Below are positions 12,318-57,292 of a stretch of 64,000 nucleotides of DNA, in pieces. The notes under the pieces were generated by a model, which worked only from the letters and a program-made list of their open reading frames with translations, made no database searches and had not been told where the DNA came from. The position numbers and the translations under genes are program-made. Source of the stretch: Microbacterium sp. zg-B185 (GTDB lineage Bacteria > Actinomycetota > Actinomycetes > Actinomycetales > Microbacteriaceae); NCBI RefSeq assembly GCF_030246885.1, contig NZ_CP126739.1, positions 2,604,001 to 2,668,000 of the forward strand, in the 5' to 3' direction. Each line of letters starts with the position of its first letter. Position 1 is the stretch's first letter.

Positions 12318-12362
12318 CGAACCCACCTGATTACCTTCCGTGTGTCAGCTTCGGCTGACGCG

Positions 12363-12435
<73 letters not shown>

Positions 12436-19386: not shown

Positions 19387-20916
19387 GTGCAGACGACCGA
19401 CACTCCTACGCTGGGTGCGCTGCTGGCGCGCGGGGATCTGCGGCTCCGACTGGAGGGGGACGGCGCTGCGCTCGCCGAGGGCGCGTTGGATCGGCCGCTG
19501 CGCTGGGTGCACAGCTCGGACCTCGCCGATCCCACGCCGTTCCTGTCCGAGGGGCTCGCGCTGCTGACCACCGGGACGCAGTTCCAGGATGCTGCGGACG
19601 ACCCCGCCGTGTACCGCGAGTACGTGAGCCGGCTGTCCGCGCGCGGAGTGATCGGTCTCGGCTTCGGCACGGAAGTGGTGCGCGACGGGATTCCGCCGCT
19701 GCTGGTGGAGGCGTGCCGCGCGCTGCGGATGCCGCTGTTCGAGGTGCCGTACCGCACGCCGTTCATCGCGGTCGCCCGGGCCGGGGCGGAGGCGATCGCC
19801 GCGCAGTCCTACGCGCGACGAAGCTGGGCACTCGCTGCGCAGCGCGCGATCTCGCTCGCTGCGCTGCGGCCGGACGGGCTGGGAGCGACCCTGGCCGAGC
19901 TCGCGCGGCAGCTGGATGCGTGGGTCGGGCTGTTCGACGGCGCCGGCTCGCTGACCCGCGAGCACCCCGGCGCGCTGGAGCCCGCCGTGGCGGAGGAGCT
20001 GCGCTCCGAGGTCGGTGCGGTGCTGCGCCGCGGCGCGCGGGCCGGATCGTCGCTGCGCATCCGCGGCACCGCTTTCACGTTGCAGACGCTCGGACGCGGC
20101 GGGCACCTGCGCGGAGTGATCGCGATGTCCGCAGCCGATCTGGATCAGGAGGGGCGCGGTGTGGTCACCGCCGTCGTGGCGATGGCGGGGCTCGCACTCG
20201 AGCAGCAGCAGGGAATGGATCGCGCCCGCACGCTCCTGCGCGCCGGTCTCGTGCACGCGCTGCGCAGCGACGATCCGACCCTTGCCCGGCGCATTGCCCG
20301 CGATCTGTGGGGCGGGCTGCCCGCACCGCCGGTGCTGGTGGCGATGACGGACGCCGCGGCCGCCCGGCGGGACGCCGTGCGGGAGTGGCTGGAGCTGCGT
20401 GCGGATCAGCGGCGCGGGCGACTGTTCTTCGGTCGCAGCGAGGACGGCCTGGTGCTGGTGGTCAACGCCGCCGACGCCGACCTGCTGGAGGAGCTCGCGG
20501 AGCGATTCGAGGTCCACATCGGCGTCTCGGACCCGGCCGCGTACGACGCGTTCTCCGGCGGTGTGGATCAGGCCCGTCTCGCCCGCGATCGCGGCGACGG
20601 GCGCGTTTCGCGCTTCCGCGACGCCGTCGGCACCGGCGTATTGTCCGTCCCGCCCTCGCCCGAGGCCCGCACCGTCGCCGACGCGGCCCTCGCGCCGCTG
20701 GTGCGGCACGACCTCGAGCACAACACCGCCCTGCGCGAGACCGTGCGCGCGTGGCTGGCGAACGACTGCTCGCACGAGGCTTCCGCTCGCGCCCTCGGCG
20801 TGCACCGGCACACCGTCCGCGCACGGATCGCGGCGGCCGAGCGCGTGCTGGGTCTGGACCTCGGCTCGTTCCCCGTTCGCGCCGAACTGTGGGCTGCGCT
20901 GCGGCTGAGTTCCTGA
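19387..20916 (+). CDS. PucR-family transcriptional regulator
   Basis: A 509-residue protein with GTG start. The N-terminal 130 residues form a PucR ligand-sensing domain (L-R-W-V-H-S-S-D-L-A-D-P-T-P-F-L and G-L-G-F-G-T-E-V). The middle is GGDEF-like/GAF-like, and the C-terminal PucR helix-turn-helix reads H-E-A-S-A-R-A-L-G-V-H-R-H-T-V-R-A-R-I. PucR proteins act on purine, GABA, polyamine or amino-acid catabolism genes. Its divergent position makes the gabT-puo cluster the probable target, with putrescine or GABA as possible inducer. Confidence 0.88.
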   Translation: MQTTDTPTLGALLARGDLRLRLEGDGAALAEGALDRPLRWVHSSDLADPTPFLSEGLALLTTGTQFQDAADDPAVYREYVSRLSARGVIGLGFGTEVVRDGIPPLLVEACRALRMPLFEVPYRTPFIAVARAGAEAIAAQSYARRSWALAAQRAISLAALRPDGLGATLAELARQLDAWVGLFDGAGSLTREHPGALEPAVAEELRSEVGAVLRRGARAGSSLRIRGTAFTLQTLGRGGHLRGVIAMSAADLDQEGRGVVTAVVAMAGLALEQQQGMDRARTLLRAGLVHALRSDDPTLARRIARDLWGGLPAPPVLVAMTDAAAARRDAVREWLELRADQRRGRLFFGRSEDGLVLVVNAADADLLEELAERFEVHIGVSDPAAYDAFSGGVDQARLARDRGDGRVSRFRDAVGTGVLSVPPSPEARTVADAALAPLVRHDLEHNTALRETVRAWLANDCSHEASARALGVHRHTVRARIAAAERVLGLDLGSFPVRAELWAALRLSS

Positions 20917-20964
20917 GGCCGCGGGCGCGGCATCCGACCCGCCCCTCCGCCCGCGCCCCCTTTC

Positions 20965-21310
20965 GCTCCCCCTGTCACGACACGCCGCGCAGACTCGCAG
21001 AACGCGACAGGCGAGCAGGCGTCACCCCCGGCCCCTCCGCTCCCCTGTCACGACACGCCGCGCACACCCGCAGAATGCGACAGGCGAGCAGGCGTCACCC
21101 CCGGCCCCTCCGCTCCCCCGTCACGACACGCCAAGCACACCCGCAGAACGCGACAGGCGAGCAGGCGCCACCCGCGACCCCTCCGCTCCCCCGTCACGAC
21201 ACGCCAAGCACACCCGCAGAACGCGACAGGCGAGCAGGCGCCACCCGCGACCCCTCCGCTCCCCCGTCACGACACGCCGAGCACACCGCAGAACGCGACA
21301 GGCGAGCGGG
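20965..21310. repeat. Five tandem 73-bp units, each with a 51-bp inverted-repeat element
   Basis: This is the only notable content of the 397-base gap 20917-21313 between convergent pucR and mtlR. CTGTCACG or CCGTCACG recurs at 20972, 21045, 21118, 21191 and 21264, exactly 73 bases apart. Each unit contains the core CGACACGCCR and ends with GCGACAGGCGAGC (last unit GCGACAGGCGAGCGGG). In unit 2 the element spans 21039-21089 (51 bp), with imperfect arms GCTCCCCTGTCAC and GCGACAGGCGAGC. Units 3 and 4 are almost identical, indicating recent duplication; unit 5 lacks one C. The same element family occurs near 51.8 kb. Confidence 0.92.
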
Positions 21311-21313
21311 CCG

Positions 21314-23242
21314 TCACCCGTCGATGACGGCGACGAGCTCGTCCAGGAAGCCCGCGAAGGTCGTGCTGCGACGCACGATCCGGTGGACGCTGTCCCGCTC
21401 GGAGAACACCTCCACGAACTGCTCGAAGACCGTCTGGAACGCTTCGCGATCGGTCTCCGAGAACGCCACGACCGCGACCACCTGCACGCGGCCCTCGCCC
21501 CAGGGGATCGACGGGTCGGCGATGCCCACCGCGATGGCCGTTCGGGTCGCGGTCATGCCCAGCGCATGCGGGACGGCCAGGGCGTCGGTGAAGGCGGTGG
21601 AGGACAGTCGTTCGCGCTCGATCGTCCGTTCGATGTAGTCCTCATCGATGATGCCCTCGGCTACGAGGGGTGCGCCCAGCCGCCGGATCACACCCTCCTC
21701 GCCGGCCTCGGCATCCAGCCCGTGCACGAACGCCGACGGAACGAAATAGCGCTCCAGCTCCTTGCGCAGCCGCGCCAGCCGCCGCGACCGACGGATCCGC
21801 GCCGCCGCGGTCTGGACCCGGTCCACGTCGGCGTCGGTCAGGAAGGGCTGGATCCGGACGAACCGGTCCCCGACGACGGCCGGTTCGATGGTCGTCAGCA
21901 CCAGGTCGGTGTCGATCGTGTCCCAGTCCGGATCCACGCGGGTCTCCACGCCGACCACCTCGATCGACTGCCCGAGCGAACGGTCCACGCTCGAGCGCAG
22001 GAGCTCGTGCAGTTCGTAGTACCCCGGGCACACGATGGTGGCGGTCAGCAGCTGGTCCGCGCGCCGGCTGCGCTCGAGCCGGCCGCCGACGTGCATGGCG
22101 ATGTACGCGATCTCGTCGTCCAGGAGAGGGATGCCGAGCCGCTGCTGCAGGCCGCTCGCGATGAAGACGGCCACCTCGAAGATCATCGGGTACGTCGACT
22201 TCAGCGACTTCGTGAGCGGATTGCGCGACCACGCCTGCTCCCGGGCGCGATGCTGCAGATTCTGCACGTGCAGAGCGAGGCGCAGGATGAAGTCCTCGTG
22301 CGCTATGTCGACGAGGAACTCGGCCGCGGCCGTCTCGACCACCTCGCGCACGGCCGCTTCCACGTCCGGATCCAGGCGCGAGCGCGCGTGATCGGACGGC
22401 ACGGACGCGCCGGGCGCGACCACCCGGGTCAGCACGAGGGTCGACAGATGCTGCAGATCCCCGGCTCCGAGACTGACGCCCAGGTGCTGCTCGACGAGCC
22501 GCCCGAGGATCGCCGCGACCTCCTGCTGCGCGGGACGCACCTCGCCCGCGGTGCCTTCCAGCGCGCGGTCCCGCCCCACCCGGTCCGCCGCGATCGCGAT
22601 GTGCATCACGACATCGGAGATGCCGAACTCGTTGACGAAGTATCCGAGGGCACCCAGTTCGGCGACCAGCTCGGTCTTGAACGGACCGAAGGCGTGCGCG
22701 CCCACGGAGCCCTCACCCAGCGTGCGCCGCAGGGCATCCAGGTCGAACGATCCGGCATCCATCTCGTCGTGCGCCAGCCTGCTGAGCAGGCGCCGCTGCG
22801 CCATCTCGGTGCCGCGCAGCCGCGCCTGAGACGCCGACCGCTCCAGGGTCAGCTCGGTGCCTCCGAGCAGACCGCGCACGCGGGCGAGGTCGGCCTCCAG
22901 CGTCGCCGGGCTGACGTGGAGTCCCGCTGCGGTCTCGAACACGTCCACGCCGTCCTCCGCGTCGAGCAGCGCGCGAACGAGGGTGTGCAGCCGGTCGCGG
23001 GGCGTTCCGCCCTCTGCGGTGCCGGGCACGCGCAGGGCGACGGCGGCCTCCGGTCCGGCCCGGTATCCCTGCGGACCCGATTCGACGGCCAGTCCATCAG
23101 GAACACGCGCATTGATGGCCGTCACGTAGGAGCGGATGCTGCGGGGTGTGACTCCGAGGGCGTCCGCGAGCGCGGCGGCCGTGACCCAGTCCCCGTCCCG
23201 CGAGAGAAGTCCCAGAAGACGATCCTGTCTCGCTCTGGTCAC
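21314..23242 (-). CDS. mtlR: PTS-regulated transcriptional activator (MtlR/BglG type)
   Basis: A 642-residue multidomain regulator with GTG start. Order: N-terminal helix-turn-helix (residues 1-60, A-L-A-D-A-L-G-V-T-P-R-S-I-R-S-Y), a second helical domain, PRD1 (about 180-290) and PRD2 (about 290-400, I-A-Y-I-A-M-H-V-G-G-R-L-E-R), a IIB-like domain with its cysteine in T-I-V-C-P-G-Y-Y-E-L-H, and a C-terminal EIIA domain (T-D-A-L-A-V-P-H-A-L-G). Phosphorylation of PRD, IIB and IIA sites by PTS proteins switches such activators. It is divergent from the PTS/mannitol genes it most likely controls. Confidence 0.88.
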   Translation of the reverse strand: MTRARQDRLLGLLSRDGDWVTAAALADALGVTPRSIRSYVTAINARVPDGLAVESGPQGYRAGPEAAVALRVPGTAEGGTPRDRLHTLVRALLDAEDGVDVFETAAGLHVSPATLEADLARVRGLLGGTELTLERSASQARLRGTEMAQRRLLSRLAHDEMDAGSFDLDALRRTLGEGSVGAHAFGPFKTELVAELGALGYFVNEFGISDVVMHIAIAADRVGRDRALEGTAGEVRPAQQEVAAILGRLVEQHLGVSLGAGDLQHLSTLVLTRVVAPGASVPSDHARSRLDPDVEAAVREVVETAAAEFLVDIAHEDFILRLALHVQNLQHRAREQAWSRNPLTKSLKSTYPMIFEVAVFIASGLQQRLGIPLLDDEIAYIAMHVGGRLERSRRADQLLTATIVCPGYYELHELLRSSVDRSLGQSIEVVGVETRVDPDWDTIDTDLVLTTIEPAVVGDRFVRIQPFLTDADVDRVQTAAARIRRSRRLARLRKELERYFVPSAFVHGLDAEAGEEGVIRRLGAPLVAEGIIDEDYIERTIERERLSSTAFTDALAVPHALGMTATRTAIAVGIADPSIPWGEGRVQVVAVVAFSETDREAFQTVFEQFVEVFSERDSVHRIVRRSTTFAGFLDELVAVIDG

Positions 23243-32595: not shown

Positions 32596-32676
32596 CTGTC
32601 CCGTGTCCCGTGTCCCGTGTCCCGTGTCCCACTTCGGCAGGCGACACGCCGGGCGTCGGATGCGCAAGTGGGACAC
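32596..32676. repeat. Heptamer microsatellite running into a 53-bp inverted repeat (copy 1)
   Basis: CTGTCCC followed by four GTGTCCC heptamers (32596-32630) leads into the inverted repeat 32624-32676. Its perfect 11-bp arms are GTGTCCCACTT and AAGTGGGACAC. The interior carries GGCGACACGCCGGG. The element lies between the SDR gene and the end of the DUF559 gene. The heptamers look like slippage of the left arm. A second copy in the same orientation lies at 33733-33785. Confidence 0.92.
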
Positions 32677-32714: not shown

Positions 32715-33629
32715 TCAGGGGCGCCAGCCTGCCTCGTGCAGCGCCTCCCGCACGAGCGCGACGGCGGTCGGCCGATCGCCGCGCATGTGATGCCGCAGGA
32801 TGCGAACGTGCCGCCACCCCGCACGGCGGATGGCGCTCCACCGATCGGCGTCGCGCTCGAACTGCCGGACATCCTCCGCGTGGACGCGCCCGTCGTACTC
32901 GACCGCGACGCGCCAGCGCCGGTAGGCCAGGTCCAGGCGCGCGATCGCCCGGCCGTACGCGTCCCGGAGGACCCAGTTCACCTCGGGCTCGGGCAGGCCG
33001 GTGCGTACGATCAGCAAGCGCAGGCGGGTCTCCTCCGGGGACTCGACACCGGCTCGGACGTGGTTCAGGGCTGAACGCATCGTCGTCGCGGACCGGCCGC
33101 GGAGCATGCGGACCTCGTCCCTGAGCTCCTCGACGGTGCCCCAGCCCTGATGGACGATGGCGTCCGCAGCGACGACCAGGTCGTCGTGGCGCCAGAGGCT
33201 GCCGGCCTGCCGCCACGCCCGGACGGGATGCTCCAACGGCATGCCGGCATGCACCACGATCGCCGGCTCGCGCACCTGGAGTCGGTGACCGATCACCCCC
33301 TGCGTGCGCGGTTCGCGAGCCGGCCGGTGCGCCGCGACGTGCAGCCCCACTCGGTGCGGCCACCGCGGGGTGGGCAGTCCGACGAGCGCGAGCGCGGTCT
33401 CGCCCCAGAAGAACTGCCAGGGCGCCAGCCTCGGCGCGTACTGGAGGCACATCAGCACAAGCGGATCGTCGCTGTCGGCGAAGAACGCGTCCGGGGTGCG
33501 CACGCCGTGGAAAGGGCGGCCCAGATCGGAACCGGCGAGTCGCCCCCGGCCGACGCCGAGCTCACGCGCGACACCCACCGTGAACGGCTGCCCGGACAGT
33601 TCGACGGGGAGGGGGCTCGGTCGCAGCAT
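32715..33629 (-). CDS. DUF559-type protein with Vsr-like endonuclease fold
   Basis: A 304-residue protein. The N-terminal 190 residues resemble the AbiEi/helix-turn-helix-like part seen in many actinobacterial proteins of this type (P-F-T-V-G-V-A-R-E-L-G-V; W-G-E-T-A-L-A-L-V-G-L-P). The C-terminal 110 residues carry the DUF559 core: S-P-E-E-T-R-L-R-L-L, a catalytic-looking A-R-L-D-L-A-Y followed by V-A-V-E-Y-D-G-R-V-H, then R-Q-F-E-R-D-A-D-R-W and V-R-I-L-R-H-H. Such domains are PD-(D/E)XK/Vsr-like, but activity is unproven. It is a single gene with no partner, framed by direct copies of a 53-bp palindrome. Confidence 0.8.
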   Translation of the reverse strand: MLRPSPLPVELSGQPFTVGVARELGVGRGRLAGSDLGRPFHGVRTPDAFFADSDDPLVLMCLQYAPRLAPWQFFWGETALALVGLPTPRWPHRVGLHVAAHRPAREPRTQGVIGHRLQVREPAIVVHAGMPLEHPVRAWRQAGSLWRHDDLVVAADAIVHQGWGTVEELRDEVRMLRGRSATTMRSALNHVRAGVESPEETRLRLLIVRTGLPEPEVNWVLRDAYGRAIARLDLAYRRWRVAVEYDGRVHAEDVRQFERDADRWSAIRRAGWRHVRILRHHMRGDRPTAVALVREALHEAGWRP

Positions 33630-33732: not shown

Positions 33733-33785
33733 ATGTCCCGCTTCGGCATGCGACACGCCGGCTATCCCCTGCACAAGTGGGACAC
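33733..33785. repeat. 53-bp inverted repeat (copy 2)
   Basis: Arms ATGTCCCGCTT and AAGTGGGACAC, with interior TGCGACACGCCGGC. Same length and orientation as copy 1 at 32624-32676. It lies in the 235-base gap between the start of the DUF559 gene and the end of add. Nothing else is evident in that gap. Confidence 0.9.
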
Positions 33786-51738: not shown

Positions 51739-51762
51739 GGCCCGCCCCGCTCTGCTATCGCG

Positions 51763-51947
51763 CTCGGCAGCCCCGCTCGCCTGTCACGCTCGGCTGCCCC
51801 GCTCGCCTGTCACGATCGGCGCGCCCCGCCGGCGTGTTGTGACAGGCGAGCCGGAGGCCGACCGACGCCTGTGCCGCGCCACGCACCGACAGCCCCGCTC
51901 CCCTGTCACGATCCGCGCGCCCCAGCGGCGTGTTGTGACAGGCGAGC
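51763..51947. repeat. Cluster of 51-bp inverted repeats (two full copies and a half)
   Basis: A 26-bp unit (51763-51788) is repeated at 51789-51814. The second unit enters a full element at 51801-51851 with perfect 13-bp arms GCTCGCCTGTCAC / GTGACAGGCGAGC. A second full element lies at 51897-51947 (arms GCTCCCCTGTCAC / GTGACAGGCGAGC). Read on the minus strand, both carry CAACACGCCG and align over 51 bp with the elements of the 21.0-kb array. This fills most of the gap 51739-52004 between trpS and the GNAT pseudogene. Confidence 0.92.
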
Positions 51948-57068: not shown

Positions 57069-57081
57069 GAAGTGCAATACG

Positions 57082-57235
57082 TGCTCCGGGGTCGGTGGGA
57101 ATCCGAACCGGCGGTGACAGTCCGCGAGCCGAGGTGACAGCATCCGATTCGGGTGCGCCGAGGCTGATCCGGTGGAAATCCGGGACCGACGGTGATGCAG
57201 CAGAAATGCTGCGAGTCCGGATGGGAGGCAGCACG
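57082..57235 (+). ncRNA. FMN riboswitch (RFN element)
   Basis: The conserved RFN blocks occur in order: TCGGTGGGAATCC, then ACCGGCGGT...AGTCCGCGAGC, a variable arm with CGATTCGGG, then GATCCGGTGGAAATCCGGG-ACCGACGGT, and finally GAGTCCGGATGGGAGG closing the first helix. This element binds flavin mononucleotide. It lies 58 bases before ribD and is expected to repress ribD-ribE-ribBA-ribH when FMN is abundant, by blocking translation or terminating transcription. Confidence 0.95.
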
Positions 57236-57292
57236 GGCGGTGCCTGCGCGCCGCCGATCGCCAATCCCGGAGCCTGAAGAAGAAGGATTCGG

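Follow-up and report, generated by a model that had tools for sequence, protein, structure and literature searches.

A tandem array in Microbacterium sp. zg-B185 belongs to a dispersed REP-like palindrome family that may be paired with a nuclease gene

We analyzed a tandem array of a 51-bp palindromic element in a window of 64,000 nucleotides from Microbacterium sp. zg-B185 (contig NZ_CP126739.1 of assembly GCF_030246885.1, forward-strand positions 2,604,001 to 2,668,000; unprefixed coordinates below are those of this window). It is somewhat more probable than not that the array arose by tandem amplification, in place, of a single copy of a dispersed palindrome resembling the repetitive extragenic palindromic (REP) sequences, and that this palindrome forms a pair like a REPtron with a nuclease unrelated to the REP transposases. 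The element, here called R1, is located at the 3′ ends of genes, most of its compared sites are common to different species, and its arrays gain and lose units. Its pairing with the nuclease is statistical for a group of proteins and direct for R1 at one locus.

Tandem Repeats Finder placed the array at 20950-21320 (period 73, 5.1 copies, 92% matches), and its score of 589 was the highest of the 10 rows returned for the window, the runner-up scoring 107. A sequence-only reading of the window had proposed five units at an exact 73-bp period. The core CGACACGCC does recur at 20978, 21051, 21124, 21197, and 21270, the next base being A in units 3 and 4 and G in units 1, 2, and 5, and the arms and the core are as that reading gave them. 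Five units were also found, but the starts assigned to them lay 6-7 bases inside the true elements. With the R1 model, the units were located head-to-tail on the plus strand at 20965..21016 (unit 1; 63.6 bits, E 6.1e-14), 21039..21089 (unit 2; 69.8 bits), 21112..21162 (unit 3; 64 bits), 21185..21235 (unit 4; 64 bits), and 21258..21307 (unit 5; 64.4 bits). Units 3 and 4, which had been called nearly identical, are in fact identical across all 73 bases; the left arm of unit 1 has one extra C, and the centre of unit 5 has one base fewer. The proposal that the array is recent or actively homogenised holds locally, with spacer identity averaging 72% within a locus, 35% between loci, and 32% in shuffles. 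Because the whole 73-bp unit is repeated, spacers included, the array is not one of clustered regularly interspaced short palindromic repeats (CRISPR), as had been stated.

R1 denotes both the family of this palindrome and its covariance model, which was built from 59 copies after a profile step. A whole-genome search with one unit as query gave many other places in the source genome (G000; 3.57 Mb), where the model found at least 62 sites at E ≤ 0.008 and one weaker match. This number is a lower bound, with 150 candidates scored, and the copies group into about 35 clusters. Roughly, the R1 consensus reads GCTC-S-CCTGTCAC-R-ACACGCCG, about 9 variable bases at the centre, and then GC-NNNN-YGYGACAGG-S-GAGC. 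This palindrome comprises 14 outer pair positions; its inner part is asymmetric, and its left core is conserved. Of the 59 aligned copies, most begin with GCTC or GTTC and finish with GAGC or GAAC. Among relatives, R1 was detected in 51 of 295 Microbacterium genomes at E 1e-6, the source included. At the family level, two of 299 genomes from 85 genera gave a match (G000 and G060, both Microbacterium), and a single weak match (E 1e-4) came from 15 genomes representing other families of the order. In these genus and family scans, 19-20 candidates per genome were scored under stricter filters, so that further carriers are possible. The sequence-only reading had allowed for a simple local satellite if the element were absent elsewhere in the genome and in relatives; it is present in both, and the 62 dispersed copies rule out a purely local satellite. 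As a side observation, one third of the source chromosome (1.31-2.37 Mb) is nearly free of R1, holding one of the 35 clusters (p 0.003; 0.02 once near clusters are merged; post hoc).

We then considered the position of R1 relative to genes, which were called with a codon-usage script. The stretches were chosen because they hold elements: 31 from the source genome, 40 from four other Microbacterium carriers (G205, G017, G110, and G247), and 17 more from G017 and G110, whose sites are those among the matches listed. In the source genome, all 33 clusters lay outside genes, 14 in convergent and 19 in tandem gaps, with copies downstream of genes; none lay in a divergent gap, compared with 17 of 62 element-free gaps (p 4e-4). 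In the four other carriers, 42 clusters divided into 19 convergent, 19 tandem, and four divergent, none of them in genes; divergent gaps made up 4/42 here and 22/46 among the element-free gaps (p 1e-4). For the 17 further stretches, 15 copies were intergenic (seven convergent, eight tandem), one was uncallable, and one was in a gene. This last copy (L194:2534-2584, where L-numbers denote single genome stretches) lies in frame in the linker of a response regulator, and the sister species is without it. Across the five genomes, 82 of 86 pairs of neighbouring copies were on the same strand, that is, head-to-tail.

Copy number was compared between the sister species G017 and G110, for which 11 of 12 sampled G110 stretches pair with G017 stretches. 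It differed at six of 11 orthologous R1 sites, one of the six being cut by a contig end. At 10 more G017 sites, R1 was present in seven of the G110 counterparts and absent in three; one of the three has an ordinary GC hairpin instead (L133/L230), and another is the counterpart of the linker copy described above. The three filled and unfilled site pairs were compared for the terminal inverted repeats and target-site duplication expected of a MITE of a DDE insertion sequence, and their flanks are too diverged to fix the element ends. In G205, 17 of 20 sampled stretches are orthologous to source-genome places that also carry R1. Dispersed copies, changes of copy number, and three of 21 sites that are element-free in the sister species together make an amplified mobile palindrome the best supported of the explanations in the sequence-only reading, the others being a structured RNA array and a protein-binding array. 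We also examined concerted evolution across loci and rejected it: G000 and G205 copies differ by 0.05-0.14 at four orthologous loci and by 0.17 at random loci, and thus vertical descent suffices at these four.

The spacings of the 86 neighbouring pairs in the five genomes peak at 63-65 (13 pairs) and 72-76 (35 pairs), and spacers are often 13 or 22-25 bases long. Since the spacings peak although the spacer sequences are unrelated between loci, spacer length is conserved without sequence. A test for helical phasing of the spacings gave Rayleigh p 8e-5 at a period of 10.5 bp (n = 66), with the maximum at 10.75-11. This signal stems largely from the 64 and 73-74 modes and is therefore only suggestive.

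The direct case of pairing is nuclease paralogue A, which matches REase_MTES_1575/DUF559 and has R1 arrays on both sides, in the source genome (L030) and at the orthologous place in G205 (L132). A second paralogue, B, lies in the window itself (32715..33629, minus strand, 304 aa). Its N terminus is predicted to form an AbiEi-like DNA-binding fold and its C terminus a nuclease fold of the Vsr/I-Bth0305I homing type, and a comparison of the predicted fold was positive for the Vsr-like part. Residues D233 and E244 of the putative catalytic site (numbered as in paralogue B) proved invariant in the family alignment. Paralogue B is bracketed by a second palindrome family with the same core CGACACGCC: a copy with arms GTGTCCCACTT..AAGTGGGACAC is downstream (32624..32676), and one with arms TGTCCC..GGGACA is upstream (33734..33784). 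The arms of this family are TGTCCC[AG]CTT..AAGTGGGACA and its core is CGACACGCC/GGCGTGTCG. A TGTCCCG heptamer repeated 4.9 times at 32597-32630 directly adjoins its TGTCCC arm. Of 7995 candidates scored against paralogue B, 1005 were homologues at E ≤ 0.001, and the source genome probably contains a third paralogue (P0007) that is 61% identical to B.

More generally, several palindrome families have different arms and a common inner core CGACACGCCG/GGCGTGTCG. Of 20 sampled places of these families, 15 were in convergent or tandem gaps, three in divergent gaps, and two in genes. At one orthologous site inspected by eye in 30 genomes, other Microbacterium species had either no element or a different palindrome. 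A further palindrome type with TTGGGGCGC..GCGCCCCAA-like arms was seen in several Microbacterium genomes (L097, L099, L103, L105, L110, and L089).

To explore the statistical side of the pairing, a flank-sharing score was used, because palindrome-only enrichment was too noisy. The score measures the local repeat common to the 400 bases upstream and the 400 bases downstream of a gene, and it varies by a few units depending on which gene ends are chosen. The screen covered 61 stretches (1.02 Mb), namely the window and 60 others selected by synteny with the PRD regulator gene beside the array and not for elements; the last 40 were taken at the distance already known for the nuclease. In the first screen of 376 genes, paralogue B ranked first (36.2) and its G205 orthologue second. 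Among the 437 genes of the 40 further stretches, the top five (L294, L285, L280, L273, and L277) all belonged to the nuclease family. Three genes, in L294, L277, and the sixth-ranked L271, were outside our earlier homology list; their flank sharing was found first and their Pfam membership afterwards. Other high scorers were outside the family by Pfam: L235 (pyrimidine phosphorylase), L251 (Mutator transposase), and L278 (no match). The Mutator-family transposase gene (genome G190, L251:9771-11036) stands among GCAACTCCTGAGGA repeats.

The eight family members identified by homology to A and B, and to two of the eight themselves, scored 26.8-51.4, all above every other gene (maximum 25.6). When the relatives of L294, L277, and L271 were added, 10 of the 29 members exceeded all 787 other genes, for which the maximum was again 25.6, and 20 were above the 95th percentile (Mann-Whitney, p 1e-10). 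With homology-based ends, L247 scored 41.0 and L250 28.6; with its codon-usage start, L247 scored 15.8, and L250 was uncalled by the script. Our correlation analysis showed that nuclease similarity tracks palindrome similarity (Mantel r 0.76, p 2e-4; Spearman 0.30, p 0.011), also without close orthologues (Spearman 0.39, p 0.013).

In Microbacterium, Arthrobacter, and Tsukamurella, a group of related genes shows this bracketing with other palindrome families, and some of these families also have dispersed copies within the organism concerned. For flank sharing, three Arthrobacter homologues on large replicons scored 29.8-40.0 (24.8-37.0 with other gene ends), and two Tsukamurella homologues scored 45.6 and 30.2, the shared repeat of the second being less clearly palindromic; six neighbouring control genes scored 10.6-15.6. 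The bracketing palindromes recur at 10 places (two replicons), seven places (one replicon), and 25 places (two replicons) in Arthrobacter and at 20 places on eight records in Tsukamurella, where these counts may include both strands and the sites may be about half as many. For the sets of 10, 25, and 20 places, and thus in both genera, copies were also present on records without the gene in question. An unannotated record labelled Bacteriophage sp. carries a homologue of an Arthrobacter protein of this family, with a flank-sharing score of 30.2.

Several results weigh against a nuclease-driven spread of the palindrome. Bracketing by R1 is one locus in two related genomes, G000 and G205, both of which were sampled for elements, and a cognate nuclease was not found in the sampled DNA of the carriers G017, G110, and G247, whose genomes were not searched. 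The comparison of sister-species sites yielded no clean empty site showing a target duplication. The palindrome-only score fails to single out the nuclease genes, which ranked 107, 153, and 163 of 376, and it was through their flanks that L294 and L277, which are among the 10 top-scoring members, joined the family list. Of the 36 homologues compared, a set that the two A loci stand outside, 19 scored below 23; the Nonomuraea homologue scored 16.8 and is not bracketed. In the 17 second-group genes inspected, the palindrome was upstream only in 12, on both sides in two, downstream only in two, and missing in one, and palindrome enrichment was stronger upstream (p 2e-7) than downstream (p 0.05). 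The group-one homologues of Microbacterium, except A, are at one syntenic place, and thus represent fewer lineages than genes. Common descent may explain part of the Mantel correlation.

In the window, the array fills the gap 20917-21313 between two convergent genes, as had been read from the sequence. To its left is a PucR-like regulator gene (19387..20916, plus strand), and to its right is the PRD/PTS_EIIA_2 regulator gene (21314..23242, minus strand). In G205, the PucR orthologue retains an array at its 3′ end and the PRD gene is located elsewhere; therefore a rearrangement breakpoint lies at the array, and it coincides with the array when the gap is compared with L127 and G205:C1:1243524-1244618. 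The window has a second R1 site with two copies on the minus strand, at 51801..51851 (70 bits; about 60 bp downstream of a tRNA-synt_1b gene) and 51897..51947 (68.7 bits), beside tandem 26-bp fragments of an R1 arm (GCTCGCCTGTCAC-like; 51744..51800). Elsewhere in the window are an FMN riboswitch (57078-57237; 71.7 bits) and, on the minus strand, a tRNA-Trp gene (12362-12435).

We infer that the nuclease spreads the palindrome. As the cognate partner, the AbiEi-Vsr nuclease would recognise the palindrome, either as a DNA inverted repeat or as an extruded hairpin, and nick or cut at it; repair or recombination would then copy it into new sites. In such a REPtron-like unit, an unrelated nuclease would stand in for the Y1 transposase. 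The arrays may grow by unequal recombination or slippage, often in steps of about 73 or 64 bp, and a benefit to the host, such as 3′-end processing or termination, would be secondary. With slightly more doubt than confidence, we extend this to a second, independently evolved route of palindrome spreading, in which lineage-specific hairpin families of Actinomycetota would be copied by cognate two-domain AbiEi-Vsr nucleases with genes bracketed by those hairpins, arms and nuclease would co-diversify, and families would successively replace each other at gene 3′ ends.

The main rival is that the palindromes beside nuclease genes are operators of the AbiEi-like domain, while the dispersed copies are further binding sites or have spread in an unrelated way, unmobilised by the nuclease. 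Inverted repeats at the promoter of an AbiEi gene are bound by the antitoxin itself, and the 12 of 17 second-group genes with an upstream-only palindrome fit an operator. Such a role covers the upstream copies, but it fails on the downstream copies, which the group-one genes examined carry as well, and on the dispersed R1, which avoid divergent, promoter-only gaps and favour convergent ones, the opposite of what operators do. We consider this explanation unlikely, although it survives better than the others.

It is less likely still that R1 copies are selected transcription terminators or stabilisers of mRNA 3′ ends, acting bidirectionally in convergent gaps. R1 does lie downstream of genes, no terminator-like site was found in 20800-21450, and the ordinary GC hairpin of L133/L230 takes the place of R1 in the sister species. 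The hairpins are also stable, with mean minimum free energies of −27.0 and −30.7 kcal/mol for the two strands of 163 sequences, compared with −16.9 kcal/mol when the first 100 plus strands were shuffled. Nevertheless, no T-run was seen in the R1 consensus, and canonical terminators near stops were not rarer beside R1, at 2/47 versus 3/49 in the source genome and 5/57 versus 0/27 in four other genomes. At least two sites inspected by eye (L140 and L192) keep a terminator-like hairpin beside R1, and 244 of the 295 genus genomes have no R1 match at E 1e-6.

We regard it as very improbable that R1 is a neutral local satellite or a set of relic repeats without present mobility: the sites common to species (17 of 20 G205 stretches and 18 of 21 G017 sites) and the single locus of the R1 nuclease partner agree with relics, but the arms and left core have been retained between species whose flanking genes are about 80-90% identical, sister species differ at three of 21 sites, and the dispersed copies leave no place for a purely local satellite.

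Two further candidates were rejected. The structured RNA array suggested in the sequence-only reading was not established. Rfam gave no match at the gathering score over the array and none at E ≤ 1 in 20900-21400, and covariation within R1 was not clearly above the column expectation, position 5/47 being Watson-Crick in just 63 of 163 sequences. Of the two strands, the complement gives the better fold in 117 of the 163 sequences and at 61 of 85 loci, but we claim no RNA role, because R1 in tandem gaps has no orientation bias towards transcription (18 versus 20). As for a phage origin of the elements, the left-arm pattern matches one viral contig, and paralogue B has no relative in the viral contigs.

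A palindrome-bracketed nuclease gene in three genera provides a concrete candidate enzyme. If nuclease-driven spread is true, it would account for a class of REP-like repeats without a transposase, link homing-type nucleases and AbiEi-like DNA-binding domains to genome-wide repeats, and give a role to a large protein group now called DUF559 or hypothetical. If the nuclease link fails, a REP-like family with measured array dynamics remains, undescribed in the available text of the literature matches listed. Among those matches, with subscription papers and preprints lying outside the search, the available text described no palindromic repeat families of Microbacterium and no palindrome-flanked DUF559/MTES_1575 genes. 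Microbacterium is not mentioned in the available part of PMC2267715, and in that of the RepRanger paper (PMC12306157), the table includes one Arthrobacter genome, with no Microbacterium, DUF559, or REP-associated tyrosine transposase (RAYT).

REP sequences, the bacterial interspersed mosaic elements (BIMEs), their RAYT (TnpA-REP) transposases, and REPtrons are treated in PMC3733652, PMC3116915, and PMC2817692, each of which was available in part. Like these, R1 consists of dispersed intergenic palindromes, mainly in convergent and tandem gaps, with several families per genus. As in a REPtron, a gene for a DNA-processing enzyme is flanked by the repeats, but the enzyme is a different one, an AbiEi-Vsr-type protein in place of the Y1 transposase of REPtrons, and for R1 this layout was found at one locus in two genomes. 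A search for the Y1 REP transposase (PF01797) found none in the source genome, with control genomes giving matches; in the genus, it found one among 295 genomes (G056, a non-carrier) and none among the 51 R1 carriers. In contrast to GTAG REPs, R1 is 51 bp long with long arms, and no GTAG occurs at any end of the 59 aligned copies. Neighbouring R1 copies are head-to-tail (82/86 pairs on the same strand), whereas BIME orientation alternates. According to the available part of PMC3733652, CGTC-tagged REPs, including Neisseria dRS3 and Rickettsia RPE, have stems of 8-9 bp and are mostly head-to-head dimers, and some of them are clustered. R1 is similar to them as a REP-like family without a dedicated transposase and differs in its 14 outer pair positions, its head-to-tail arrays, and the lack of a terminal CGTC. 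Thus, R1 works like a REP/BIME locus and is not a member of that class, from which it departs in tags, transposase, and orientation.

The nuclease also stands apart from its closest known counterparts. I-Bth0305I (PDB 3r3p) is a member of the EDxHD group of intron-borne homing endonucleases. The nuclease described here differs from it and from Vsr (1cw0) in that its gene is bracketed by palindromes and its protein has an extra AbiEi-like N domain. It differs likewise from the AbiEi antitoxins of type IV toxin-antitoxin systems (PDB 6y8q), in that its AbiEi-like domain is fused to a nuclease domain.
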